64,000 bases of DNA from Candidatus Aquidulcis sp. (GCA_020723345.1 DYJA01000021.1:1-64000); one strand, 5' to 3'; shown: positions 33,011 to 48,299, counted from the first letter of the stretch. The notes: generated from the sequence alone by a model not told the origin. Program-made: numbers and translations.

Positions 33011-33667
33011 CTAATTGCCTGCGCGTACGCGCGCAGGCCGCTCTCCGCGTTTTTGTATCGCTTGGCGCGACTTGGTCGTCGCGAGATGATGATTCAGCGA
33101 TTCCGTCCGGTCTTCTGTCGTCTGCAAAACATAGATGGCGGCGGCTTCGCTATTTCCAGCATTGTGCCAGCGATGGGATAGTTGTGCCTCAAAAAGAATG
33201 CTATCTCCCTTTTGGAGGAGATAACGCCGACCGTTTACCTCGCAGTCAATTTCCCCTTCCAAACAGAAGATGAACTCGTGGCCTGAATGGGACGCCCGTT
33301 TAGTCCCACTTTTCGCTTTGACATCAAGTTGCAGAAAAATAAGTTCCATGGTTTGGTCAGCCAGACCAGTCCCCAGATTCTCCATCAGAATGCCGTCACT
33401 CCTTACCTGGTCGCGCTGATTGGCTTTGACAAAACTGACCCCTTTGTCTGCTGGCTCCTCAAAGAAGAACGAAATCTTGACTTCCAGAGCCATCGCCAAT
33501 TTCTGCAAGGTCACAATACTGGGCGCCATCTGCCCGCGTTCGATTAAACTGATCGTGTTGGCGGAGAGGTCGCACGCGTTTGCCAAGTCGCGTATGGACA
33601 GCCCGCGCTGCTGCCGCATCGCCCTCAATTTGCTCCCCACATCGAGGAGAATTCCTTTTTCTTTCAT
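33011..33667 (-). CDS. XRE-family regulator with C-terminal cupin, copy 1
   Basis: Transcription factor of 218 aa: helix-turn-helix at about 10-65 (LSIRDLANACDLSANTISLI) and a cupin_2 barrel at about 120-190 (SHSGHEFIFCLEGEIDCEV, GDSILFEAQLSHRW). Proteins of this layout bind a small ligand or metal in the cupin (family knowledge). It is transcribed away from the NifX-like gene and could control it and the Hmc-like operon. Two related regulators lie at 40050 and 48334. Confidence 0.88.
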   Translation of the reverse strand: MKEKGILLDVGSKLRAMRQQRGLSIRDLANACDLSANTISLIERGQMAPSIVTLQKLAMALEVKISFFFEEPADKGVSFVKANQRDQVRSDGILMENLGTGLADQTMELIFLQLDVKAKSGTKRASHSGHEFIFCLEGEIDCEVNGRRYLLQKGDSILFEAQLSHRWHNAGNSEAAAIYVLQTTEDRTESLNHHLATTKSRQAIQKRGERPARVRAGN

Positions 33668-33886: not shown

Positions 33887-33988
33887 ATAGGTGCAACAAT
33901 CGAATACTGACACACTATACTATCTACAAAAGAAATAGATGTCCAATTTTGTGTATCAGCGGTGTCCTGGAACCGGGAAGGAGGAAAA

Positions 33989-34675
33989 ATGAAGATCGCG
34001 GTCAGTTCATTTGGAACCAACCTGGATGCCTGGGTGGGTAGCAGTCTCGCTCGATGCCGGCAATTCGTCTTGGTGGATAGCGAGACGATGCAGTACGTTG
34101 TGATCAGTGTTTCCCCGGCTCAGACAGTCCTCGACGCGACCCTGGAGGCGATTCGTGCCCTGGCAGTTCACGGCGCGCAAGTCGCCATCGTCAGCCAAGC
34201 CCGGCAAGAGTGTATTGACTTTTTGGCTGAAATGGGGATCAAGGTGATTTCCGGAGTTCATTCGCTTACCGTGCGCGAAGCGGTTGAACGTTACCTGCGC
34301 GGCGAATTGGAGCGTCCAGAGGGACGGACTGGCGGTCCTCTGCGAGTAGCCGTTGTTGCTTCCAGGGAAGGTTTGGATGCGACGGTGACGGCAAATCCAC
34401 GGACCAAGCCGCGCTTTCTACTCGTGGAACCAGAAAACCTCACCTACACTGTGGTTCACCTCGACTCACTCGACTCCACAGGCGAAGTCGATCCTCAAAC
34501 GATCCAGACGCTGATTCAACAGCGGGTCAGCACAGTGATTGTCCCACGCCTCAGCCGCAACGCTTGCCAAGTCCTCTGCACATTGGGAATTCAACCCCTC
34601 TGCGTACCTCGGAACCTGACAGTCCGCAAAGCCGTCGAGCGCTACAAAAAAATGCGAGAAGCGACGACAGATTAG
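33989..34675 (+). CDS. Tandem NifX/NifB-like (dinitrogenase iron-molybdenum cofactor) protein
   Basis: Protein of 228 aa made of two NifX-like domains, about 1-105 and 118-225. Each has the same plan: MKIAVSSFGTNLDAWVGSS and LRVAVVASREGLDATVTAN at the beginnings, and VREAVERYL / VRKAVERYK at the ends. Single-domain relatives bind Fe-S or FeMo-cofactor precursors; here no nif genes are near. It precedes a PadR gene and the Hmc-like complex, perhaps as a cluster carrier or sensor (inference). GGAGGAAAA precedes the ATG. Confidence 0.8.
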   Translation: MKIAVSSFGTNLDAWVGSSLARCRQFVLVDSETMQYVVISVSPAQTVLDATLEAIRALAVHGAQVAIVSQARQECIDFLAEMGIKVISGVHSLTVREAVERYLRGELERPEGRTGGPLRVAVVASREGLDATVTANPRTKPRFLLVEPENLTYTVVHLDSLDSTGEVDPQTIQTLIQQRVSTVIVPRLSRNACQVLCTLGIQPLCVPRNLTVRKAVERYKKMREATTD

Positions 34676-34696: not shown

Positions 34697-35143
34697 ATGC
34701 CTGACGTTCATCCTGTGCGACAAAAAAGGCAACCCTCTTCAAGTCGGTTGGTTGGATACCTTGAACCTTGTTTGCTCTTGCTCCTGAGCAGCAAACAAAG
34801 CCATGGTTACGATCTGATTGATCGGCTTGCGTCGTGCGGTTTCTGGGGCAGCGACTGTGAGCCAAGTCTGGTCTATCGGGTTCTGCGGAAAATGGAATCG
34901 GCTGGCGCGGTGTCTTCTGTATGGGACACCATCACGGCTAGCGGTCCCCCGCGGCGTGTCTATTCCATCACAGCGAATGGGCGAGAGGCGCTGACCGGCT
35001 GGACGAGTTATCTTCAGGAAACCGATCAAATCTTGCATCGTTTTCTGGCAGCGCATGAGAAACTGGTTCGGAACGAGAGAGTCGCGGCGAAGAAAATGGA
35101 GGAGCAGCATGATCACGACAAAAGAAGCGGAAGGCAAAAGTAG
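34697..35143 (+). CDS. PadR-family transcriptional regulator
   Basis: Winged-helix regulator of 148 aa. LEPCLLLLLSSKQSHGYDLI is the PadR opening, LVYRVLRKMESAGAV the recognition region, and RRVYSITANGREAL the wing, followed by a dimerisation helix. The 3' end overlaps the Fe-S subunit gene by 35 nt. Likely regulates the respiratory operon it heads. The signal is unknown. Confidence 0.85.
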   Translation: MPDVHPVRQKRQPSSSRLVGYLEPCLLLLLSSKQSHGYDLIDRLASCGFWGSDCEPSLVYRVLRKMESAGAVSSVWDTITASGPPRRVYSITANGREALTGWTSYLQETDQILHRFLAAHEKLVRNERVAAKKMEEQHDHDKRSGRQK

Positions 35144-36491
35144 GAAATCGCCTTATCCTTTTTACGTGGAGCAAGTCCCAAAATCTGGGGACAAGGTGGA
35201 ACGATTTCTCTCCGCCTTCGCCGTCATTCTTCATCATAGCAACTATCGTTTCTTGCTGGATATGTACATCCAGGTGACCGCTCACTGCGCGCGTTGCGCG
35301 ACCAGTTGCCAGGTCTACCAAGCGTCTGGCGATCCGCGCGATGTCCCCTGTTATCGGACAAGTTTGTTGTTGGATGTCTATCGGCGCTATTTCACTCCCC
35401 AGGGTTGGTTCACAGGCAAATTGTGGGACGTTGGCAATCTCACCGAAGCGCGGATTGACGAGATGGCGAAGTTGTTCTACCGCTGCACCGCTTGTCGGCG
35501 CTGCAAACTCGAATGTCCGATGGGAATCGATCATGGTTTGATGACGCGACTGGGGCGTTACATCCTCAGCGAGACTGGGATCGCGCCGAAAGGACTAGTC
35601 GTCTCGGTACGCGAACAACTCGAAGGCAAGACAGGCAATACTTCGGCGATTCCTCTGCCCGCTTTGATGGATAACCTGGAATTCCTGCAAGATGAATTGC
35701 GCGAGAGCAAGGGGATCACCATTCCTTTCCCGATTGACCAAACGGGCGCCGAGTACATTTTCTTTCCAGCCGTGAGCGATTATCTGATGGAAGCGGATAC
35801 GTTGATGGGGAATGCGGCTGTGTTGCACGCGGCGCGAATTCCCTGGACGATTGGATCGCAGTACTTTGACGGCATCAACTATGGTTTGTTCTACAATGAT
35901 TGGATCTTGGGGCGAATCATCCAGAAACTATTGGCGGAGACCCAACGATTGGGAGCAGACAAGATTCTGATCGGCGAATGTGGGCACGCGGCTCGCTCCG
36001 CCAGACAATTCGTGCCGACGTTCAGTCAGAATGGCGCGCCGCCCGTGGTCAGCGTTATTGAGTTGACTTGGCAGGCGATCCAATCCGGCAAACTCGATTT
36101 GGATCCGGCCGCGATCCCAGAGCGCGTCACCTATCACGATCCGTGCAACATTTCGCGCTCGGGTTGGATCGTGGATCAGCCGCGCAACATCTTGCGGAGT
36201 TTTGTCAAGAACTATGTGGAGATGCAGCCGAATGGCAAGGAAAATTACTGTTGCGGTGGCGGCGGGGGGCTTGTCTCTCTGGACGAGATGCACGATTTGC
36301 GGATGCAGGTCATCGCGAAAACCAAGGCGGAGCAAATCCGCGCGACGGGCGCGGACATCGTCGTCAGCCCGTGCGCCAACTGCAAGAAACAACTGCGCGA
36401 GATCGCGACCTACTACAAGTTGCCCGTCCAGATTGTTGGACTGCACGATCTGATCCTGCGCGCGATTCAGTTCAAACCCGAGAAGGCGTAG
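35109..36491 (+). CDS. HmcF/HdrD-like iron-sulfur subunit (CCG domain)
   Basis: Cytoplasmic or membrane-associated Fe-S protein of 460 aa in the HdrD/DsrK/HmcF family. The N-terminal ferredoxin-like part has Cys60, 63, 67 and Cys126, 129, 132, 136 for two 4Fe-4S clusters. The C-terminal CCG domain has CCGGGGG at 381-387 and SPCANCKKQ (Cys422, 425), which in HdrB/D hold a special cluster acting on disulfides. The first CCG repeat is degenerate (GECGHAAR). GGAGGAG precedes the ATG. With the next three genes it forms a transmembrane electron-transfer complex. Confidence 0.85.
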   Translation: MITTKEAEGKSRKSPYPFYVEQVPKSGDKVERFLSAFAVILHHSNYRFLLDMYIQVTAHCARCATSCQVYQASGDPRDVPCYRTSLLLDVYRRYFTPQGWFTGKLWDVGNLTEARIDEMAKLFYRCTACRRCKLECPMGIDHGLMTRLGRYILSETGIAPKGLVVSVREQLEGKTGNTSAIPLPALMDNLEFLQDELRESKGITIPFPIDQTGAEYIFFPAVSDYLMEADTLMGNAAVLHAARIPWTIGSQYFDGINYGLFYNDWILGRIIQKLLAETQRLGADKILIGECGHAARSARQFVPTFSQNGAPPVVSVIELTWQAIQSGKLDLDPAAIPERVTYHDPCNISRSGWIVDQPRNILRSFVKNYVEMQPNGKENYCCGGGGGLVSLDEMHDLRMQVIAKTKAEQIRATGADIVVSPCANCKKQLREIATYYKLPVQIVGLHDLILRAIQFKPEKA

Positions 36492-36519
36492 GCGGAAAAT
36501 ACGAGAGGAAAGAACTACT

Positions 36520-37224
36520 ATGACGGACTGGCTTGAGATTGCTCAAGGTCCCATCTTTCGTTTCGCGCTCGCGATCTTTGTCTTGGGCTTGGCGCGGCAA
36601 GTTGGACTGACGGTGAGTGGCGCGCTCACCGCGATCCGCCGGGCGAAAGACCGGCGGTTGCCCTATCGGGAGATCGCCAAGGAAACCCTCAGTTGGATTT
36701 TTCCCATTCGCGCGTTGCGCCGCGCCAGACCCTTGCAAAGCGTCGCCTCGTTCGCCTTTCATATCGGCGTGATCTTGGCAGGACTCTTTTTGCGCAATCA
36801 CATTGATATTTTTCAATCGAATGTTGGCATTGCTTGGATCGCGTTACCGCGCCCGCTTTTGGACTGCTTGACTTTGCTTGCTATCGCCGGGGCAACGATT
36901 CTTTTGCTCTATCGCGTTTATTCGTTGTCAGTCCGTACACTGAGCACGGCGATGGACTATATTCTTCTCGTAATGATTCTCGGCTTGATGATCTCTGGCT
37001 ACATCGCCGGGCAATCCTGGAATCCGATTCCCTACAATACGCTGATGCTCTTCCACACCTGGGGAGGCATACTCTTGGTCATCCTGATTCCGTTCACCAA
37101 GATCGCGCACTGCGTTCTCTTTCCGTTAACCCGGTTTTGTACCGAGATCGCTTGGCATCTCACTCCCGAAGGTGGGTCAGAAGTCATCCACACACTCTAC
37201 GGATCCGACGGGAGGAAAGTATGA
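36520..37224 (+). CDS. HmcE/NarI-like membrane cytochrome b subunit
   Basis: Membrane protein of 234 aa with about five hydrophobic segments, of the NarI/DsrM/HmcE type. Histidines in SFAFHIGV, LMLFHTWGG and KIAHCVLF are candidate haem b ligands. It should move electrons between the quinone pool and the CCG subunit encoded just upstream. The stop overlaps the start of the ferredoxin gene (ATGA). Confidence 0.82.
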   Translation: MTDWLEIAQGPIFRFALAIFVLGLARQVGLTVSGALTAIRRAKDRRLPYREIAKETLSWIFPIRALRRARPLQSVASFAFHIGVILAGLFLRNHIDIFQSNVGIAWIALPRPLLDCLTLLAIAGATILLLYRVYSLSVRTLSTAMDYILLVMILGLMISGYIAGQSWNPIPYNTLMLFHTWGGILLVILIPFTKIAHCVLFPLTRFCTEIAWHLTPEGGSEVIHTLYGSDGRKV

Positions 37225-37988
37225 TCGGCATCTTGGTAGATGTGACGCGCTGCATCGGTTGTCGTGAGTGCGTGGCAGCGTGCGTGAACGCGAACCGCCT
37301 CGGGAAAAATATTCCTCTGCCGCAACACTCGGCGGATGGGTTGTCGTCGCAGCGATGGGTCTCTGTGATTTCCCGACCTGGCGAACGCTATGTTCGCAAG
37401 AGTTGTCTCCATTGTTTAGAGCCCGCGTGTGTGTCCGCCTGTCCAGTCGGCGCGATGCAGAAAACTCCGGCGGGACCGGTCGTCTACGACGCCTCTCTTT
37501 GTATGGGTTGTCGCTATTGCATGATGGCGTGTCCGTACGGCGTGCCGCGCTATGACTGGGATCATCTTGTTCCTTATGTCCGCAAGTGTACGCTCTGCTA
37601 CTCCAGATTGAAGGAAGGCAAGTTGCCGGCTTGTGTCGAAGCATGTCCGACTCAGGCGCTCGCCTTCGGTCAACGCTCTGAGTTGCTATCGCAAGCCCAC
37701 CGGTTGATCCGGAGCGAGCCGATGAAATTCGTTCAAACGGTCTATGGTGAACACGAAGCCGGGGGGACGTTAATCCTCTACATTTCCGATATTCCTCTGG
37801 ACTGGCTGGGCTATCATGTCGCCCCCGGTCCCACGCCGCTACCCGATTACACTGCGCTTGCGATGTCACTCGTTGCGCCAACTTCTCTAGGCGTGATGGC
37901 TTTGATGGCAGGCACCTGGTGGGTTATCCAGCGACGGATGAAACTAATGGGAGCAAGAGCCGATTCATCGGAAGGCGAAACACAATGA
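37221..37988 (+). CDS. HybA/HmcB-like ferredoxin with C-terminal membrane anchor
   Basis: Protein of 255 aa with four cysteine clusters: CIGCRECVAAC (from Cys11), CLHCLEPACVSACP, CMGCRYCMMACPYG and CTLC with CVEACP, enough for four 4Fe-4S clusters. A single hydrophobic segment lies near residues 215-240. No Tat or Sec signal is seen; the first cluster begins at residue 11, so the clusters would face the cytoplasm unless exported with a partner. It overlaps both neighbours by four nt. Electron wire between the NrfD and HmcE-like subunits. Confidence 0.87.
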   Translation: MIGILVDVTRCIGCRECVAACVNANRLGKNIPLPQHSADGLSSQRWVSVISRPGERYVRKSCLHCLEPACVSACPVGAMQKTPAGPVVYDASLCMGCRYCMMACPYGVPRYDWDHLVPYVRKCTLCYSRLKEGKLPACVEACPTQALAFGQRSELLSQAHRLIRSEPMKFVQTVYGEHEAGGTLILYISDIPLDWLGYHVAPGPTPLPDYTALAMSLVAPTSLGVMALMAGTWWVIQRRMKLMGARADSSEGETQ

Positions 37989-39811
37989 GCCAGCGCAAGG
38001 CAACCATCGTCAAAGATTTTCTGTGGGCTTGTACCGCCGCCGGTTTCGTCGCGATCATCCTGCGCTTTGCGTACGGGCTGGGCGCTACCACCGGACTATC
38101 CGATACGACTCCCTGGGGATTCTGGATCGGGTTCGATTTATTGGGAGGCGTCGCGCTGGCAGCCGGTGGATTCACGATCGCGGCGGCAGTCTACATTTTT
38201 CACTTGGAATCGTATCGCCCTTTGCTCCGCTCCGCGATCCTCACCGCGTTTCTCGGCTATCTCTCGGTGATCTTCGCTCTGCTCTGTGATCTGGGTTTAC
38301 CCTGGCACATCTGGAAGCCGATGGTCAATTGGCAGCCCCATTCGGTAATGTTCGAGGTGGCTTGGTGTGTGATGTTGTATACGACGGTCTTGTCCCTTGA
38401 GTTTGCTCCGGTCGTGCTCGAGCATCCTTGGTTTCGATTGCCGATTTTCCGCGCCGTGTTGACTCTGCTCAAACGACTGACTCTTCCCTTGGTGATCCTG
38501 GGTATCGCGCTTTCGACTTTACATCAATCCTCACTCGGCTCGCTCTTTTTGATTGTGCCGTACCGTTTGCATCCGCTGTGGTACAGCCCGATTCAGCCGA
38601 TCCTCTTTTTCGTCTCAGCAGTCGCGCTGGGATTGTTGACGGTGACCTTGGAGGCATTCGTCTCGGCATATCTGTACGATCACGAACTGCCGCACGGTCT
38701 TTTGGCGGGGCTTGGAAAAGTTGCGGCTATCGTGCTTTGGGTGTACCTCGCGCTCCGCATCGGCGATTTGATTTTTCGCAAACTCATTCTCGCGCCTTTC
38801 AATGGATCGTGGCAGGGTGTACTTTTCCTCATCGAACTTGGATTGGGCGCGCTGATCCCGGCAATCTTGCTTTCGATCCCGCGCGTGCGTCGGAGCCCAA
38901 TCGGATTGGGAACCTCGGCGATCCTGGGAGTCTCGGGCATTATTCTGAACCGGCTCTCAGTCAGTGTGATTGCCCAATATCGTCCGCCAGAGACCGCGTA
39001 TTTTCCGTCTTTGAGCGAGTTGCTGATCAGTCTGGGTGTGCTCTCGGCGATTGGCTTGGTTTTCCTTTTCATCGTGGAGACCTTCAACGTTTTTGGCGCG
39101 CCAGAGAAACACGAACTAGATCAGAGTGTTTCAAGTCCAGTCTCCTATGCCTTTCAAGATGATCTCTGGCGCAACCATATATTGCGTCGTTCATTCGTTG
39201 TGGTACTCGTGATCGCAGCGACATTTGCGTTGCTTCCTTCCCAGATCGTCGAGGGACGGATGATGCCCTCTACCGAGGTGAGAAGCGCGGTGGGCGGCGA
39301 CATACTCTGGATTGATGGCAACCGCAACGAAGAAGGGGTACGCTTTGAGCACCAAAAGCACATTGAGCGCCAACGGCAACAGGCAACGAATGAGGAGACG
39401 GCTTGCGCGGTTTGCCATCATCTGAGCAAGCCGGGTGACCAAGCCACTCCTTGTTGGGAATGTCACCGCGATATGTATTTGCCTACCTCGATTTTTGATC
39501 ACACGTTCCACCAGCAAGCGCTTGGCGGGAATGTTTCTTGCAGCGAATGTCATATTGGGGAGCACATCGCAGACAGCGCTGTAGGTTGCAACGAGTGTCA
39601 CGAGACGATGGCGTCTAAAGAAAGTACAACAGTCAAGTTCAATTACGCTGCCCGGGGATACGTGGATGCTCTTCACGATCAATGTGTCTCCTGCCACAAG
39701 CGCGAGGCGACGGCCCAGAACAAGGAGAACCTCCCTCGTTGCCCAACGTGCCATCGCGCGGAAGGTGCGCCTCCAGGTGTTAGAAGGCTGCTTTCTCTAT
39801 CGAATCCGTGA
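37985..39811 (+). CDS. NrfD-type membrane subunit fused to a hexaheme cytochrome c domain
   Basis: Protein of 608 aa. Residues 1-400 are an NrfD/HmcC-like quinone-interacting membrane domain of about ten segments (TTPWGFWIGFDLLGGVALAAG is diagnostic). Another segment near 425-445 leads to a C-terminal domain with six CxxCH haem sites starting at Cys474, 490, 519, 535, 567 and 586, with many extra His as in class III cytochromes. In Hmc complexes the cytochrome is a separate protein; a fusion is unusual. The haem domain should lie outside the membrane. It ends the operon, and a terminator follows 40 nt on. Confidence 0.87.
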   Translation: MSQRKATIVKDFLWACTAAGFVAIILRFAYGLGATTGLSDTTPWGFWIGFDLLGGVALAAGGFTIAAAVYIFHLESYRPLLRSAILTAFLGYLSVIFALLCDLGLPWHIWKPMVNWQPHSVMFEVAWCVMLYTTVLSLEFAPVVLEHPWFRLPIFRAVLTLLKRLTLPLVILGIALSTLHQSSLGSLFLIVPYRLHPLWYSPIQPILFFVSAVALGLLTVTLEAFVSAYLYDHELPHGLLAGLGKVAAIVLWVYLALRIGDLIFRKLILAPFNGSWQGVLFLIELGLGALIPAILLSIPRVRRSPIGLGTSAILGVSGIILNRLSVSVIAQYRPPETAYFPSLSELLISLGVLSAIGLVFLFIVETFNVFGAPEKHELDQSVSSPVSYAFQDDLWRNHILRRSFVVVLVIAATFALLPSQIVEGRMMPSTEVRSAVGGDILWIDGNRNEEGVRFEHQKHIERQRQQATNEETACAVCHHLSKPGDQATPCWECHRDMYLPTSIFDHTFHQQALGGNVSCSECHIGEHIADSAVGCNECHETMASKESTTVKFNYAARGYVDALHDQCVSCHKREATAQNKENLPRCPTCHRAEGAPPGVRRLLSLSNP

Positions 39812-40018: not shown

Positions 40019-40049
40019 ATTGGTGAAGTAATGGAGTGTGGAGTTGAAG

Positions 40050-40751
40050 ATGCCCCCCAAGCATTTTGGACCAAGACATCACAGTTCATTCGGCAAGCGA
40101 CACAGATTGCGCGGCGGAGGCGCATGTCCCGCGCCATCGAGCGCCGCGCCCGTGTCTCAAGTCAACGTTGGTCGTTGTCTGCGCGTGTTGCGCGATGAAC
40201 GCGGCTGGTCTATTCGCGAATTGGCGGAACGAAGCGGCTTGGCGATGAACACGCTCAGTCTGATCGAAAATGCCAAGACTTCACCCAGCGTCAGCACGCT
40301 GCAACAGATCGCGCGCGCGCTCGACGTGCCGATCACGGCTTTCTTTGAAACCGGCGCGCCGAAGACAGGCGTTGTGCACATCAAAGCCAGCCACCGCACG
40401 CGCGCGGCGTTCGCGCATGGCGCGTTAGAAGACTTGGGCGTCGGACTGCCCAACCGCGTCGTGCAACCCTTCGTCGTCACATTAGAGCCACACGCGGGCA
40501 GCGGTCCCAATCCAATCGTTCACACCGGCTACGAGTTCGTCTACGTGCTCCAGGGTCGTTTGACGTACACGATTCAAGACCGCACCTACTTGTTGGAGCC
40601 GGGCGATAGTCTTCTCTTTGAATCGCATTTGCCGCACCATTGGCAAAACGTGGAAGCCGAACCCTCTCAGACCTTGCTCGTACTCTTTCCAGCGGATTCA
40701 CGCGATCGCCCGACTGAAAGTCATTTCGTACCCAAGCCGGTGTTGGCTTGA
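40050..40751 (+). CDS. XRE-family regulator with C-terminal cupin, copy 2
   Basis: Transcription factor of 233 aa. A basic, low-complexity N-terminal tail of about 40 residues precedes the helix-turn-helix (SIRELAERSGLAMNTLSLIE), and the cupin follows (HTGYEFVYVLQGRLTY, GDSLLFESHLPHHWQN). It is clearly a paralog of the gene at 48334, sharing KTSPSVSTLQQ and VPITAFFET. GGAG six nt ahead supports ATG 40050 over GTG 40038. It heads a row with a NifX-like protein, DUF5320, ferredoxin and Mrp remnants. Confidence 0.87.
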   Translation: MPPKHFGPRHHSSFGKRHRLRGGGACPAPSSAAPVSQVNVGRCLRVLRDERGWSIRELAERSGLAMNTLSLIENAKTSPSVSTLQQIARALDVPITAFFETGAPKTGVVHIKASHRTRAAFAHGALEDLGVGLPNRVVQPFVVTLEPHAGSGPNPIVHTGYEFVYVLQGRLTYTIQDRTYLLEPGDSLLFESHLPHHWQNVEAEPSQTLLVLFPADSRDRPTESHFVPKPVLA

Positions 40752-40782
40752 TATTCTGATTTCACATCCTACAGGAGATAAC

Positions 40783-41181
40783 ATGAAGATTGCAGCAATC
40801 ACCGATGATGGGAAAACCATCAGTCAACATTTTGGACGCGCGCCGTACTATCTCGTCGTGACGATTGAGAATGGGCAAATCGTCAATCGCGAAATGCGCG
40901 ACAAACTCGGGCACACGCATTTTGTGAACGATCCGCACAAGGAAGACCAACCCGGTCAACCGCACGGGTTTGGACCTGCCGCGCAAGATCGACATACGCG
41001 GATGGCGGAAGCGATTGCCGATTGCCAGGCGCTTTTGTGCGGCGGAATGGGACGCGGCGCGTACGAGAGTATGCGCGCGCGCAACGTTCAACCCATCGTC
41101 ACCGACCTTGTTTCGATTGACGAAGCCGCGCGCGCATTTATCGAAGGACGTCTGACCGATCAGACCGATCGACTGCATTGA
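40783..41181 (+). CDS. NifX/NifB-like (dinitrogenase cofactor domain) protein
   Basis: Single-domain protein of 132 aa. The beginning MKIAAITDDGKTISQHFGRA and the glycine-rich CGGMGRGAYESMRARN near residue 87-102 are typical of the DiNase_FeMo_co family, which in anaerobes often goes with Mrp/MinD ATPases and small Fe-S proteins. AGGAGATAAC precedes the ATG. Possibly an Fe-S or Mo carrier; no nitrogenase genes are present. Confidence 0.85.
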   Translation: MKIAAITDDGKTISQHFGRAPYYLVVTIENGQIVNREMRDKLGHTHFVNDPHKEDQPGQPHGFGPAAQDRHTRMAEAIADCQALLCGGMGRGAYESMRARNVQPIVTDLVSIDEAARAFIEGRLTDQTDRLH

Positions 41182-41241
41182 TTGGCAAAGTGTGGGAAGT
41201 TTGGAAACCATAATGAACGATGTCGAAGGGAGGTGAAAAAT

Positions 41242-41559
41242 ATGCCACGTGGAGATGGCACGGGACCGATGGGCGCTGGTCCGATGACCGGACGCCGCGC
41301 GGGACGCTGCGCATGCGCGGGCTACGACGCGCCTGGGTTTGCCAACCCAATGCCACGTCGCGGGCTGGGTTTTCGCGGCGGCGGGCGCGGTTTCCGCAAT
41401 ATGTTCTACGCGACCGGCTTGCCGGGTTGGCAGCGCTTTGGCTACGTACCGCCAACGCCGCAGCAAGAAAACGACGCGCTGAAAGCGCAAGCCGAATCGC
41501 TCAAGCAGGAACTCGACGCGATCAACAAGCGCATCGAAGAGATGGAAGGCAAGTCGTAG
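41242..41559 (+). CDS. DUF5320-type small protein
   Basis: Protein of 105 aa. The glycine-rich opening MPRGDGTGPMGAGPMTGRRA followed by two cysteines (CACAG) is the DUF5320 signature, and the C-terminal third is a coiled coil (LKAQAESLKQELDAINKRIE). It is commonly found next to NifX-like and Mrp genes, as here. GGGAGGTGA precedes the ATG. The function of the family is not known. Confidence 0.85.
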   Translation: MPRGDGTGPMGAGPMTGRRAGRCACAGYDAPGFANPMPRRGLGFRGGGRGFRNMFYATGLPGWQRFGYVPPTPQQENDALKAQAESLKQELDAINKRIEEMEGKS

Positions 41560-41624
41560 GTGGTTGAAATGTGCGACGCGCTGACAAGGTGCGCCGCACA
41601 TTTCAAGTGAGAAAGGAACGCAGG

Positions 41625-42050
41625 ATGTACGTGGACGCGACACGCTGCACGGGCTGCGGCGCGTGTCTGCAAGTCTGCCCGTCCGACGCGATTCGCTTGG
41701 TGAACGACTGCGCGCAGATTGACGCCGCGCGGCGCAACGACTGCCAGGCGTGTGCGGAGGTTTGTCCCTCCGACGCGATCATGACGACGTTGCCGGCAAT
41801 CGTCCCCGCCGCGCAAATTGCTCCTATCGTCGAGACGAAAATAGTGCCGGCGCGCTCGCGCGTGGTCGCGCCAGCAGTCGGCGCGGCGCTGACTTTTCTG
41901 GGACGCGAGGTCGCCCCGCGCGTCGCGTCGGCGGTTGTGGAGACGATGCTCAACCGCGCCGCGGAGCGAACGCGGTTGCAGTCACCTCCATCTGTTCGAG
42001 AAAATCGCCCACGGCGTTTGCGCCGGCGCGCCAGGAAAAGTGATCGGTAG
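41625..42050 (+). CDS. Two-cluster ferredoxin with C-terminal extension
   Basis: Protein of 141 aa. CTGCGACLQVCPSDAI and a second, variant site CQACAEVCPSDAI near residue 40 would bind two 4Fe-4S clusters. The second half (about 55-141) is Ala/Arg-rich without clear fold. In similar loci a ferredoxin of this type serves the Mrp/NifX set. AGGAACGCAGG lies before the ATG. Confidence 0.82.
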   Translation: MYVDATRCTGCGACLQVCPSDAIRLVNDCAQIDAARRNDCQACAEVCPSDAIMTTLPAIVPAAQIAPIVETKIVPARSRVVAPAVGAALTFLGREVAPRVASAVVETMLNRAAERTRLQSPPSVRENRPRRLRRRARKSDR

Positions 42051-42096: not shown

Positions 42097-42550
42097 ATGG
42101 GTTTTGGCGAAAGCAAGCCGGGGGCGGCGGAGCATCTGAACGACATTCGCCGCGTGATTGCGGTGATGAGCGGCAAGGGCGGCGTTGGCAAGTCCTTGGT
42201 CAGCGCGCTGCTAGCCGTTGCCTTGCGACGCGAGGGCCATCGCGTCGGGATCCTGGATGCCGATATTACGGGACCCAGCATTCCTAAAATGTTTTTCGCG
42301 CACGCGCCGCGACCGGGGGCTAGTCCTGTCGCAATCCTGCCTGTCGAAAGTCGAACGAGGATCAAGGCGATGTCCATCAACTTGTTGTTGGAGGGTGACG
42401 ATCAGGCGGTCAACCGATTGATCCTGAGATCGCGCGGCTGTGCGATGCGGGTCACATCGAGGACTACGCCGGCGAGCCGTTTCACCCGATGGCGCAACGG
42501 GTCGTGGAGTTGGCGACTACGCTTCGTCCTCCCACCATGCCAGTCGCCTG
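42097..42550 (+). pseudogene. Mrp/ApbC P-loop ATPase gene with internal deletion and frameshift
   Basis: The first part reads as a normal Mrp/NBP35 ATPase: [20 protein letters not shown] with the Walker A, then [11 protein letters not shown] and [14 protein letters not shown]. Near 42405 the frame changes and the rest reads [20 protein letters not shown] to PPTMPVA and a stop at 42550, which is the normal C-terminal part. About 100-130 residues containing the Walker B and the CxxC region are missing. An Fe-S cluster carrier in its intact form. Real deletion or assembly join. Confidence 0.75.
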
Positions 42551-42565
42551 ATCTGGTCTGCGATT

Positions 42566-43177
42566 ATGAGGCATGGACAAGACTATCCTGATCTCTTTCG
42601 CCCGCGCTACGTGGCGCGCGACAACGCGTACAAATCCATCGGATTGACGATGACGCGCGAAGATTTGGCGCGCCGCGTTGATTTGCGGCTCAGCGCGACG
42701 CCCGCCGAGATCGTTCCTGGTCTGTGGACGACCGGCGAGATCACCGACCGTTCCGAGCCGGAAGGGCGCAGCAATCGCCACGTTGTGCGCGGCGAGAGTG
42801 GTTGGCAACCTGACACCTACCGTGACGATATGTCACTCGTGATGGAAACTGCGCGCGGTTTGGCTGTCGTCTGCGGATGTTGCCACGCGGGTCTGCTGAA
42901 CACACTTGCGCGTGTTCGTCAGGCGTTCCAGTCGCCGATTGTTGCCATCATCGGCGGCGCGCACTTGGTTGATGCGGACGCAACGCATTTGCGGCAGGTG
43001 ATTCAAGTGTTGCGCGAGGTGTATGGCTCGCCGCGTCTCCATCTCAACCACTGCACGGGCGAGCGCGCGGTGATCGCTCTGACAAACGCCTTCGGCGACC
43101 GAGTCAAACCGTTCCCAGCCGGGACAGTGCTGGAGCTGACCGGCATTGATTGCAGTGAGGCGGAGAGAAAGTGGTAG
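42566..43177 (+). pseudogene. MBL-fold hydrolase, N-terminal third missing
   Basis: The frame encodes the C-terminal two thirds of a metallo-beta-lactamase-fold protein of the type next to Mrp/NifX genes in anaerobes: LFRPRYVARDNAYKSIGL, VPGLWTTGEI, DDMSLVMETARGLAVVCGCC with CHAG, IIGGAHL and LHLNHCTGERA. The N-terminal HxHxDH metal site that should precede LFRPRY is absent, with the end of the Mrp remnant in its place. It starts at best at ATG 42566, without ribosome site. Probably not functional. Confidence 0.7.
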
Positions 43178-46359: not shown

Positions 46360-47091
46360 ATGCTGGCGGATGATTTGCGCGGCATATTTTACATCGGGCT
46401 CAAAGATCTGCGCGCGTACTATTTGAAACCGCCCAATATCAGTTGGGGCATCTTGTTTCCGTTCGCCTTCGTCCTGGCGTTCGCGATTCGCAACCCAGGC
46501 GATTTGCGCGCACTGGTGCCTGGGCTAATCGCGCTGACACTCCTGTTCGGCACGAGTTCGATGGAAGCGATCGTGATCGCGTTCGAACGACGGATCGGTT
46601 CGCTGGAACGATTGTTTCTCGCGCCCGTGAGTTTGCCCGCGCTGTTAGCAGGCAAGTTACTCGGCGGGATGGTTTTTGGACTGACGGTGACGCTGGTCGT
46701 GTTGGTCATCGCGCTCGGCGTTTTTGGCGCGGCGAGCGTCAACTGGCTTTTGCTCGCGCTCGCGATTCTGCTTTCGGCGGCGGCGTTTTCTGCGCTCGGC
46801 GCATTCGTCTCGGTTGCCGTGAAAGAAGTGTTCGAAGCGCAGACGCTCGCCAATTTCATTCGCTTTCCGATGATGTTTCTCGGCGGCGTGTTCGTGCCTG
46901 TGGACTCGATGCCGTTCGCGCTCCAGGTCATCGCGCGCGTTTTACCGCTGACCTACGCGGTCGAAGCATTGCGCGCGGCGTTGGTTGGAGGAGTACAGGT
47001 TGACGCGGTCTTCGATTTGCTGGCGCTGGGATTGTTCGCCGCAGTGTTTTTCGGATTGGCGGTGAATCGTCTGGCGCGATTACTGGATTGA
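46360..47091 (+). CDS. ABC-2 exporter permease
   Basis: Integral membrane protein of 243 aa with six hydrophobic segments. RRIGSLERLFLAPVSLPALL and the later FPMMFLGGVFVPVDSMP are conserved in DrrB/ABC-2 permeases. It pairs with the ATPase encoded 23 nt upstream. Substrate unknown. By neighbourhood the exporter could serve the thiol-redox genes, which is only a guess. Confidence 0.9.
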   Translation: MLADDLRGIFYIGLKDLRAYYLKPPNISWGILFPFAFVLAFAIRNPGDLRALVPGLIALTLLFGTSSMEAIVIAFERRIGSLERLFLAPVSLPALLAGKLLGGMVFGLTVTLVVLVIALGVFGAASVNWLLLALAILLSAAAFSALGAFVSVAVKEVFEAQTLANFIRFPMMFLGGVFVPVDSMPFALQVIARVLPLTYAVEALRAALVGGVQVDAVFDLLALGLFAAVFFGLAVNRLARLLD

Positions 47092-47105
47092 ATAGGGGCA
47101 GAAAA

Positions 47106-48299
47106 ATGGCGCGATTCTTTCGCTATGCGTTTTCTGTGTCGGGATTCATCTTCATTTTGCTTGGCACGGTGCACGCGCTGCCTGCTTCGGCGGATAGTCC
47201 CGTGGTTCGCGCGGTGATCTTCTTCTCGCCGTACTGTGGACATTGCGCGCAAGTTATCAACGAAGATTTGCCGCCCCTGTTCAAGAAATACGGCGCGCGG
47301 CTGCAAATCGTCGGCTTGGACATCTCTCAACCAGAAGGAATAGCGATGTACGAAGCCGCGATGGAGCGATTCAAAATTCAGGACGTTGCCGTGCCCACCC
47401 TGATCGTCGGCGATGTTGTGCTGATCGGCTCGCTCGATATTCCGCAGCAGTTTCCTGGTCTGATCGAAAAATATCTCGCGCGGGGCGGCGTGAATTGGCC
47501 CGATATTCCTGGTCTTGCCCCAATAATCGCGGCGGCGATGCCGACGCCGACTGCCACCTCCGCGCCAGATCCAACGCGTGTCCCGTCGCTTGCGCCTTCG
47601 ACGCGGTCAATCTCTGTGACTATCGTTCCGACAAATGCGCCCGCGCCGAAGCCAACCATTAGCGCGCCTGCGGCTGGCGTGAGCATTCCTGACTATCGTC
47701 CGTTGTCTTGGCGCGACAAACTGGCGCGCGATCCAGCAGGCAACACCTTGGCGATTGTGGTCTTGCTGAGCATGATCTTCGTCGTGGGACGCACCGCGAC
47801 GATTTGGTTTGGTACACGCGCAGTCAACCAAGTTCCAGTTGCTTGGCAGGCAGGGGCAATCCCGGTAATCACCTTGATCGGCTTGGGAATCGCCAGTTAC
47901 TTGGCGTACGTCGAAACGATGCAGGTCGCCGCGGTCTGCGGTCCGGTGGGAGATTGTAACACAGTTCAACAAAGCGAATATGCGCGACTGTTTGGCTGGA
48001 TACCGATCGGCATGCTAGGGATAGTCGGTTATATCGCCATCTTGATCGCGTGGACGATTTATCGAATCAGCCACGGATGGTTCAGCAACTTGGCGCTGCT
48101 CGTCCTGTTCGGAATCACACTTGTCGGAACCCTGTTCTCGATCTACCTGACTTTTCTGGAACCGTTCGTGATTGGCGCGACTTGCGCGTGGTGTCTTAGT
48201 TCTGCCGTCGCCATGGCAGCGCTCTTGTGGCTAATCGCCGCGCCCAGCCGCCGCGCGGCAGCGCGATTGCGTTGGCTGGAACAGTATTCTGAACTATAA
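47106..48299 (+). CDS. Thioredoxin-VKOR fusion protein
   Basis: Membrane protein of 397 aa for oxidative protein folding outside the cytoplasm. Residues 1-30 are a signal/anchor, about 32-135 a thioredoxin-like domain with the site C44-G-H-C47, then a Pro/Thr linker (about 140-195), then a VKOR domain with four segments. Cys278 and Cys284 are the loop pair and C360-A-W-C363 the quinone-proximal pair. The domain order (thioredoxin first) is the reverse of many bacterial VKOR fusions. It could supply disulfides to exported cytochromes and binding proteins. Confidence 0.9.
   Translation: MARFFRYAFSVSGFIFILLGTVHALPASADSPVVRAVIFFSPYCGHCAQVINEDLPPLFKKYGARLQIVGLDISQPEGIAMYEAAMERFKIQDVAVPTLIVGDVVLIGSLDIPQQFPGLIEKYLARGGVNWPDIPGLAPIIAAAMPTPTATSAPDPTRVPSLAPSTRSISVTIVPTNAPAPKPTISAPAAGVSIPDYRPLSWRDKLARDPAGNTLAIVVLLSMIFVVGRTATIWFGTRAVNQVPVAWQAGAIPVITLIGLGIASYLAYVETMQVAAVCGPVGDCNTVQQSEYARLFGWIPIGMLGIVGYIAILIAWTIYRISHGWFSNLALLVLFGITLVGTLFSIYLTFLEPFVIGATCAWCLSSAVAMAALLWLIAAPSRRAAARLRWLEQYSEL

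Follow-up and report, generated by a model that had tools for sequence, protein, structure and literature searches.

The locus at 35109-39811 in a 64,000-nucleotide stretch of DNA from Candidatus Aquidulcis sp. (GCA_020723345.1 DYJA01000021.1:1-64000; hereafter the window) raises the question of what is served by an Hmc-like gene set whose NrfD subunit is fused to a hexahaem cytochrome. The chances seem somewhat better than even that the four genes encode a membrane respiratory complex of the Hmc/DsrMKJOP kind working beside dissimilatory sulfite reductase (Dsr), a sequence-level reading based on the genes and their cofactor motifs, the fusion, the fold, and the recurrence of the gene set across phyla in association with dsrAB. 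The genes lie on the plus strand and encode a CCG-type iron-sulfur protein (subunit 1, 35109-36491, 460 amino acids), an HmcE/TmcC/NarI-like cytochrome b (subunit 2, 36520-37224, 234 amino acids), a HybA/HmcB/FdnH-like four-cluster iron-sulfur (FeS) protein (subunit 3, 37221-37988, 255 amino acids from ATG), and an HmcC/HybB-type NrfD protein fused to a hexahaem cytochrome (subunit 4, 37985-39811, 608 amino acids). Translation, Pfam, and a count of six CxxCH motifs confirmed the fusion and the four genes, which an earlier note on this DNA had described. The four genes had also been called overlapping, which holds for the cytochrome b/FeS and FeS/NrfD junctions (4 nucleotides each) and not for the CCG and cytochrome b genes, which are separated by a gap of 28 nucleotides.

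The 608-residue protein combines Pfam matches to NrfD (2.3e-18, residues 37 to 329) and Cytochrom_CIII (3.5e-12, residues 503 to 590). Its AlphaFold2 model (predicted local distance difference test score of 78.6) consists of ten helices and an eleventh transmembrane (TM) helix, TM11, at residues 387 to 416 (39143-39232, plus strand). Residues 1 to 372 (TM1 to TM10; 37985-39100, plus strand) matched ActC of alternative complex III (8k9e_C) in VIA-align with a Z score of 35.5 over 360 residues (root mean square deviation of 3.2), and the NrfD fold with its ten TM helices places the protein in the HybB/HmcC branch of the NrfD/PsrC superfamily; the NCBIfam scores were 291 bits for HmcC (cut-off, 550) and 270 bits for HybB. 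The haem domain, residues 437 to 593 (39293-39763, plus strand), was delimited by invariant columns, Pfam, and a structural match to HmcA (2e84; Z score of 7.0, 93 residues, 23% identity), the only VIA-align or Foldseek row under a Z score of 8 that was not taken as a common helix arrangement. The HmcA NCBIfam model also matched this tail weakly (7e-7). In an alignment of 40 fusions, the six haem motifs are invariant, with a single variant (CX4CH in L033), and the tail contains exactly six extra invariant histidines, H456, H459, H479, H506, H509, and H564, which are candidate distal haem ligands. Six such histidines for six haems fit a predicted ligation of six bis-His haems of the class III c3 type. 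The loops of the NrfD part contain 11 lysines and arginines on the negative (N) side versus 5 on the positive (P) side, which indicates that the N-side loops are cytoplasmic, so that TM11 would return the chain and the haem domain would lie outside, where haem c is attached. The P-side loops are also more conserved than the N-side loops (0.72 versus 0.48). The fusion had been thought to fix the path from quinone to the haems; that claim was not upheld, since NrfD itself carries no redox cofactor (PMC8076601) and a tether alone sets no path.

The architecture search for NrfD followed by a multihaem cytochrome, which the earlier note had proposed as a check, recovered 39 further fusions in other genomes. 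Three of these are the only ones within the class (G324, G180, and G106, among 396 genomes), and 36 full-length fusions came from a scan of GTDB species genomes with peptide patterns from the query, which remote or separately evolved fusions may escape. The latter belong to Chloroflexota, Fibrobacterota, Myxococcota, Bdellovibrionota, Zixibacteria, Acidobacteriota, Bacteroidota/Ignavibacteria/Kryptoniota, and Calditrichota, and the fusion spans about ten phyla. The 39 independent examples of the same architecture rule out an assembly, frameshift, or read-through artefact as well as a fusion unique to the source organism. Its occurrence in near relatives was likewise ruled out, since NrfD is unfused in the 40 nearest genomes, as are the own genome's three other copies. 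The supposed rarity of the fusion is thus contradicted by its distribution; it stands insofar as no characterised complex with the fusion was found, and the complexes tabulated in PMC8076601 do have their multihaem cytochrome as a subunit of its own. No description of the fusion was found in the open-access literature searched, including NrfD-complex reviews and Dsr surveys (PMC8076601, PMC10591310, PMC6338057, PMC10504309, PMC10564751, PMC13059093, PMC13047784), and this is weak evidence of novelty because most subscription papers were outside the search.

In a tree of 110 NrfD domains, the 40 fusions form one clade (Shimodaira-Hasegawa-like approximate likelihood ratio test support of 100), consistent with one change, and the window fusion falls inside a Chloroflexota group (support of 98); judged from its nearest relatives, the window probably comes from a Chloroflexota lineage. 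The one-strand order CCG, cytochrome b, FeS, NrfD/cytochrome is found in 25 of the 36 scanned loci, 4 of them with genes inserted after CCG, and in the window, G324, G106, and G180 (about 29 in total); several loci outside this count are truncated at the end of a contig. The broad topology of the CCG tree matches that of the NrfD tree, which, together with the conserved order, indicates that the gene set moves as one unit. The genes inserted between the CCG and cytochrome b genes (L050, L052, L056, and L061) encode TrmO-type, DUF6125, and CGGC-domain proteins and, in two loci, a TonB-dependent receptor. At two unfused loci, L068 (2561-3394) and L071 (6383-6745), NrfD is followed by a separate multihaem cytochrome gene with 8 and 4 CxxCH motifs, respectively, an arrangement that may resemble the pre-fusion state.

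The fusion is associated with the Dsr pathway. DsrA was above the cut-off in 28 of the 39 fused genomes, including the own genome, versus 10 of 42 unfused controls of the same scan (Fisher test, 1.5e-5), from which L067, a broken fusion, was set aside. Excluding six operons that lack the CCG gene, the proportions are 28/33 versus 10/42 (1e-7). Within the class, DsrA is present in 14 of 396 genomes, namely, 3 of the 4 fused genomes versus 11 of the 392 others (1.4e-4). Two fused genomes without a DsrA match, G397 and G420, have a strong DsrO, and G397 also has AprA; their dsrA may be missing from the assemblies. AprA was above the cut-off in 23 fused genomes, none of which are Chloroflexota. 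In total, seven loci are linked to dsr genes. In L054, the operon is directly followed by dsrA, dsrB, cobB/dsrN-like, and dsrL-like genes, clusters of this type were also found by gene clustering downstream in L055, L063, L064, and partly L065, and in G324 and G106, the operon lies about 20 kb or less from dsrABC-MK on the same contig. The own genome carries dsrA, dsrB, a dsrD-like open reading frame (ORF), dsrC, dsrM, and dsrK on a separate contig, and no aprA was found in the genome; its DsrC keeps both C-terminal cysteines. In the own genome, G324, and G106, the three Chloroflexota to which PF08679 matches were confined, DsrD adjoins dsrAB; the confinement was not taken as absence outside the class. 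A histidine kinase/response regulator pair beside the operon in G324 (the response regulator in G106) has an orthologue beside dsrAB in the own genome, and the NarL-type response regulators are 55 to 60% identical. On the 3' side of dsrMK in G324 and G106 (L113 and L115/L116) lie genes for a Rieske/twin-arginine translocation (Tat)-type protein, a Tat molybdopterin oxidoreductase, a ferredoxin subunit, and an NrfD protein, a predicted second, Psr-like complex in the dsr cluster.

The CCG protein contains two [4Fe-4S] motifs and one CCG domain (C346 / C381 C382 / C422 C425; Pfam CCG, 3.7e-15), and the cluster cysteines are invariant among 25 orthologues. Its best NCBIfam model is DsrK (297 bits; cut-off, 400), followed by HmcF (207 bits; cut-off, 750) and TmcB (201 bits), which indicates a predicted HdrD-DsrK-like subunit, cytoplasmic by homology. 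Phylogenetic analysis placed the CCG proteins in a clade of their own, apart from DsrK and from HmcF/TmcB-type rows. The cytochrome b matched HmcE (6.3e-35, 121 bits; cut-off, 275) and TmcC (2.8e-31), and its H81, H94, H179, and H197 are present in nearly all orthologues. On the basis of loop charge, H81 and H197 are probably the ligands of an N-side haem b, and H94 and H179 those of a P-side haem b. Both H81 and H197 are missing only where the CCG gene is missing, and H197 is additionally missing in L049. The operons concerned are six in Myxococcota, which keep H94 and H179 and occur in genomes without DsrA. The joint loss of the cytoplasmic CCG subunit and the haem that would face it supports the proposed route from the P side via the two haems b to the CCG protein.

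The FeS protein matched HmcB (1.1e-72, 245 bits; cut-off, 420), and the Hmc-like composition first noticed was supported, HmcE, HmcB, and HmcC being the closest models of three subunits. The FeS protein contains four [4Fe-4S] motifs, and its C-terminal TM helix precedes the invariant residues W235, R239, and R240. Its nearest solved relative is FdnH of Escherichia coli formate dehydrogenase N (1kqf_B; 4.8e-32 over residues 4 to 232), a protein that itself lacks a signal and crosses the membrane together with a Tat-bearing partner. The protein starts right at the first cluster, which corresponds to position 37 of the HmcB profile, and no signal peptide or Tat signal was found in the window or in the fused loci with a readable start. 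The earlier note was correct that the export signal is missing; its view that this makes the side of the membrane unusual was not supported, since about 37 of 67 unfused relatives also lack one and the feature is therefore not peculiar to the fusion. The lysine and arginine counts around the C-terminal helix in the fused group (4.5 after versus 1.2 before) follow the same pattern as in the Tat-bearing group, which, together with the conservation of the P-side loops of NrfD, favours a P-side Fe-S domain. The subunit may work from the cytoplasmic side or attain the P side without a Tat-bearing partner in the operon.

In the proposed mechanism, the hexahaem domain would be tethered to NrfD on the P side via TM11, and it and the FeS subunit, if on the P side, would trade electrons with the menaquinone site of NrfD and/or soluble periplasmic cytochromes. 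Electrons would cross the membrane via the two haems b to the cytoplasmic CCG subunit for delivery to a thiol/disulfide carrier during sulfite reduction, the DsrC trisulfide being the likeliest candidate. In the own genome, with dsrAB, dsrD, dsrC, and dsrMK and no aprA, the complex may serve sulfite rather than sulfate respiration, the reductive direction being suggested by the presence of DsrD. A further-reaching proposal, for which the odds appear clearly short of even, is that the single-origin fusion complex is a standard third membrane module of Dsr sulfite/sulfate respiration outside Desulfobacterota, with its FeS subunit on the cytoplasmic side or on the P side without a Tat-bearing partner in the operon.

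Several observations weigh against a role beside Dsr. G180 is the clearest exception within the class, with a full four-gene operon on a short contig (L131) and no DsrA in the genome, and in 11 genomes of the class, DsrA occurs where the fusion does not. A DsrMK distinct from the complex is encoded in the own genome, and a genuine DsrO in most of the other fused genomes, which indicates that the complex is not simply needed to replace DsrMKJOP. The Fisher tests ignore relatedness: the fusion has a single origin, the CCG loss is confined to one clade, and the controls were unmatched by phylum. The six Myxococcota operons without CCG may accordingly represent one or few events. No Tat-bearing partner is encoded in the operon, and the FeS subunit may lie on either side of the membrane. 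A replacement for missing DsrJOP as a general rule was ruled out by the DsrO found in most fused genomes; such a replacement is possible in Chloroflexota, where the DsrO-like matches are near or below the cut-off and may be Psr-like enzymes.

Other roles were considered in light of the same evidence. The complex may be an Hmc/Tmc-type conduit that passes electrons of the periplasmic cytochrome pool, derived from hydrogenase or formate dehydrogenase, straight to the cytoplasm, with the quinone site being secondary. The closeness of three subunits to the HmcE, HmcB, and HmcC models and the likeness of the haem tail to the class III cytochrome module of HmcA fit this view; however, it is unlikely, since the operon contains neither a 16-haem HmcA nor a soluble-cytochrome partner, and the strong conservation of the NrfD core and P-side loops is what a quinone/FeS site in use would be expected to show. 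That the complex instead works with a cytoplasmic disulfide or Fe-S system that has no relation to DsrC, with the Dsr co-occurrence reflecting a common anaerobic lifestyle, would be in line with the absence of DsrA from G180 and G423 and with the separation of the CCG clade from DsrK. It is rather unlikely, with the seven dsr-linked loci and the joint loss of CCG and DsrA weighing against it.

The direction of electron flow bears on another alternative, in which menaquinone or periplasmic cytochromes would receive electrons from the DsrC persulfide or other thiols via CCG and haem b during sulfur oxidation or disproportionation. The dsrL-like gene beside dsrAB in L054 is compatible with this, and type 2 DsrL has been associated with both the oxidative and the reductive direction (PMC10591310); but oxidative running is improbable given that the own genome, G324, and G106 all have DsrD adjacent to dsrAB, and DsrD points to a reductive mode (PMC10591310). 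The earlier note had expected exchange with an external partner, and a P-side multihaem domain, the fusion in an Anaeromyxobacter metagenome-assembled genome (L038), and an octahaem cytochrome gene on the 3' side of the operon in L066 would suit a conduit for extracellular electron transfer or metal reduction. This is very improbable: no outer-membrane or surface cytochrome cluster recurs among the neighbours, the conserved association is with Dsr genes, and quinol-to-surface transfer needs no cytoplasmic CCG subunit.

The four-gene operon is preceded by a gene for a PadR-type regulator (34697-35143, plus strand; Pfam PadR, 4.8e-14), the 3' end of which overlaps the start of the CCG gene by 35 nucleotides, and which is probably the first regulator of the operon. 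A gene for a Nitro_FeMo-Co (NifX-like) protein (33962-34675, plus strand; Pfam, 5.7e-17) lies 21 nucleotides upstream of padR and probably encodes an accessory product of the operon. In L037 and L041, the CCG gene is immediately preceded by a Nitro_FeMo-Co gene, an arrangement that clustering also assigns to L045, L046, and L048; phmmer gave no direct match of the window protein to the L037/L041 neighbours, the Pfam domain alone being shared. Genes for XRE-cupin-type regulators lie on either side (33011-33667, minus strand, by eye; 40038-40751, plus strand, by Pfam). Further downstream, 40771-42050 contains a second Nitro_FeMo-Co gene, a DUF5320 gene, and a small ferredoxin gene, adjoined by an Mrp/NUBPL-type ParA gene (42097-43177) that appears split: the ORF at 42097-42591 covers profile positions 2 to 89 of 246, and an overlapping ORF at 42440-43177 carries on ParA in a different frame, so that a frameshift is possible. 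After ABC transporter genes, 47088-48299 encodes a 403-residue protein with a C-terminal VKOR domain (Pfam, 1.9e-22). Outside Chloroflexota, genes for a PAS histidine kinase and one or two receiver-only proteins often adjoin the operon (L033, L037, L045, L046, L051, L053, L057, and L066) and recall rrf1 beside hmc.

The newly found Dsr lineages (Bacteroidota, Zixibacteria, Calditrichota, Myxococcota, Chloroflexota, and Acidobacteriota) are mostly uncultured, and energy conservation in their sulfite reduction is guessed from Desulfovibrio. A conserved complex tracking Dsr across phyla offers a concrete candidate for energy conservation as well as a genomic marker. It is also a compact four-gene system for the linkage of quinone, haems c, haems b, and a CCG site, and its FeS subunit without an export signal poses a clear topology question.

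Among known systems, Tmc shares the TmcB-like CCG protein and the TmcC-like cytochrome b, is not known to have an NrfD subunit, and uses a separate type II c3 cytochrome. CbcL-type proteins of Geobacter, in which a cytochrome b is fused to a multihaem cytochrome, are a precedent for joining a membrane quinone subunit to haems c; however, their membrane part is a haem-b cytochrome, unlike NrfD. Qrc, alternative complex III, and hydrogenase 2 (HybABCO) share the NrfD fold and a four-cluster FeS partner, with HybB being a close sequence model, but the fused operon and its PadR, Nitro_FeMo-Co, and XRE-cupin flanks contain no molybdopterin-like, ActA/ActB, or NiFe hydrogenase genes. Hmc of Desulfovibrio (HmcABCDEF) has in common the CCG protein, the NarI-like cytochrome b, the HmcB-type four-cluster protein, the HmcC-type NrfD protein, and a P-side class III-type cytochrome. 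In contrast to Hmc, the complex carries six haems on NrfD, has no separate 16-haem HmcA and no HmcD gene in the operon, and has an FeS subunit without a Tat or N-terminal signal, unlike the exported HmcB. None of the equivalog cut-offs for HmcB, HmcC, HmcE, HmcF, and DsrK was reached, which indicates that no subunit belongs to a named family at that level. Like DsrMKJOP, the complex would link quinone, P-side haems c, an FeS/NrfD pair, haem b, and a CCG protein across the membrane, and it is tied to dsrAB and DsrC. It differs in that DsrMKJOP has a separate small cytochrome, DsrJ, and a DsrO with a Tat signal, whereas its own CCG protein forms a distinct clade and the own genome has another DsrK (L112). 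The complex is thus Hmc/DsrMKJOP-like yet departs from the defining features of each, which suggests a variant apart from both.

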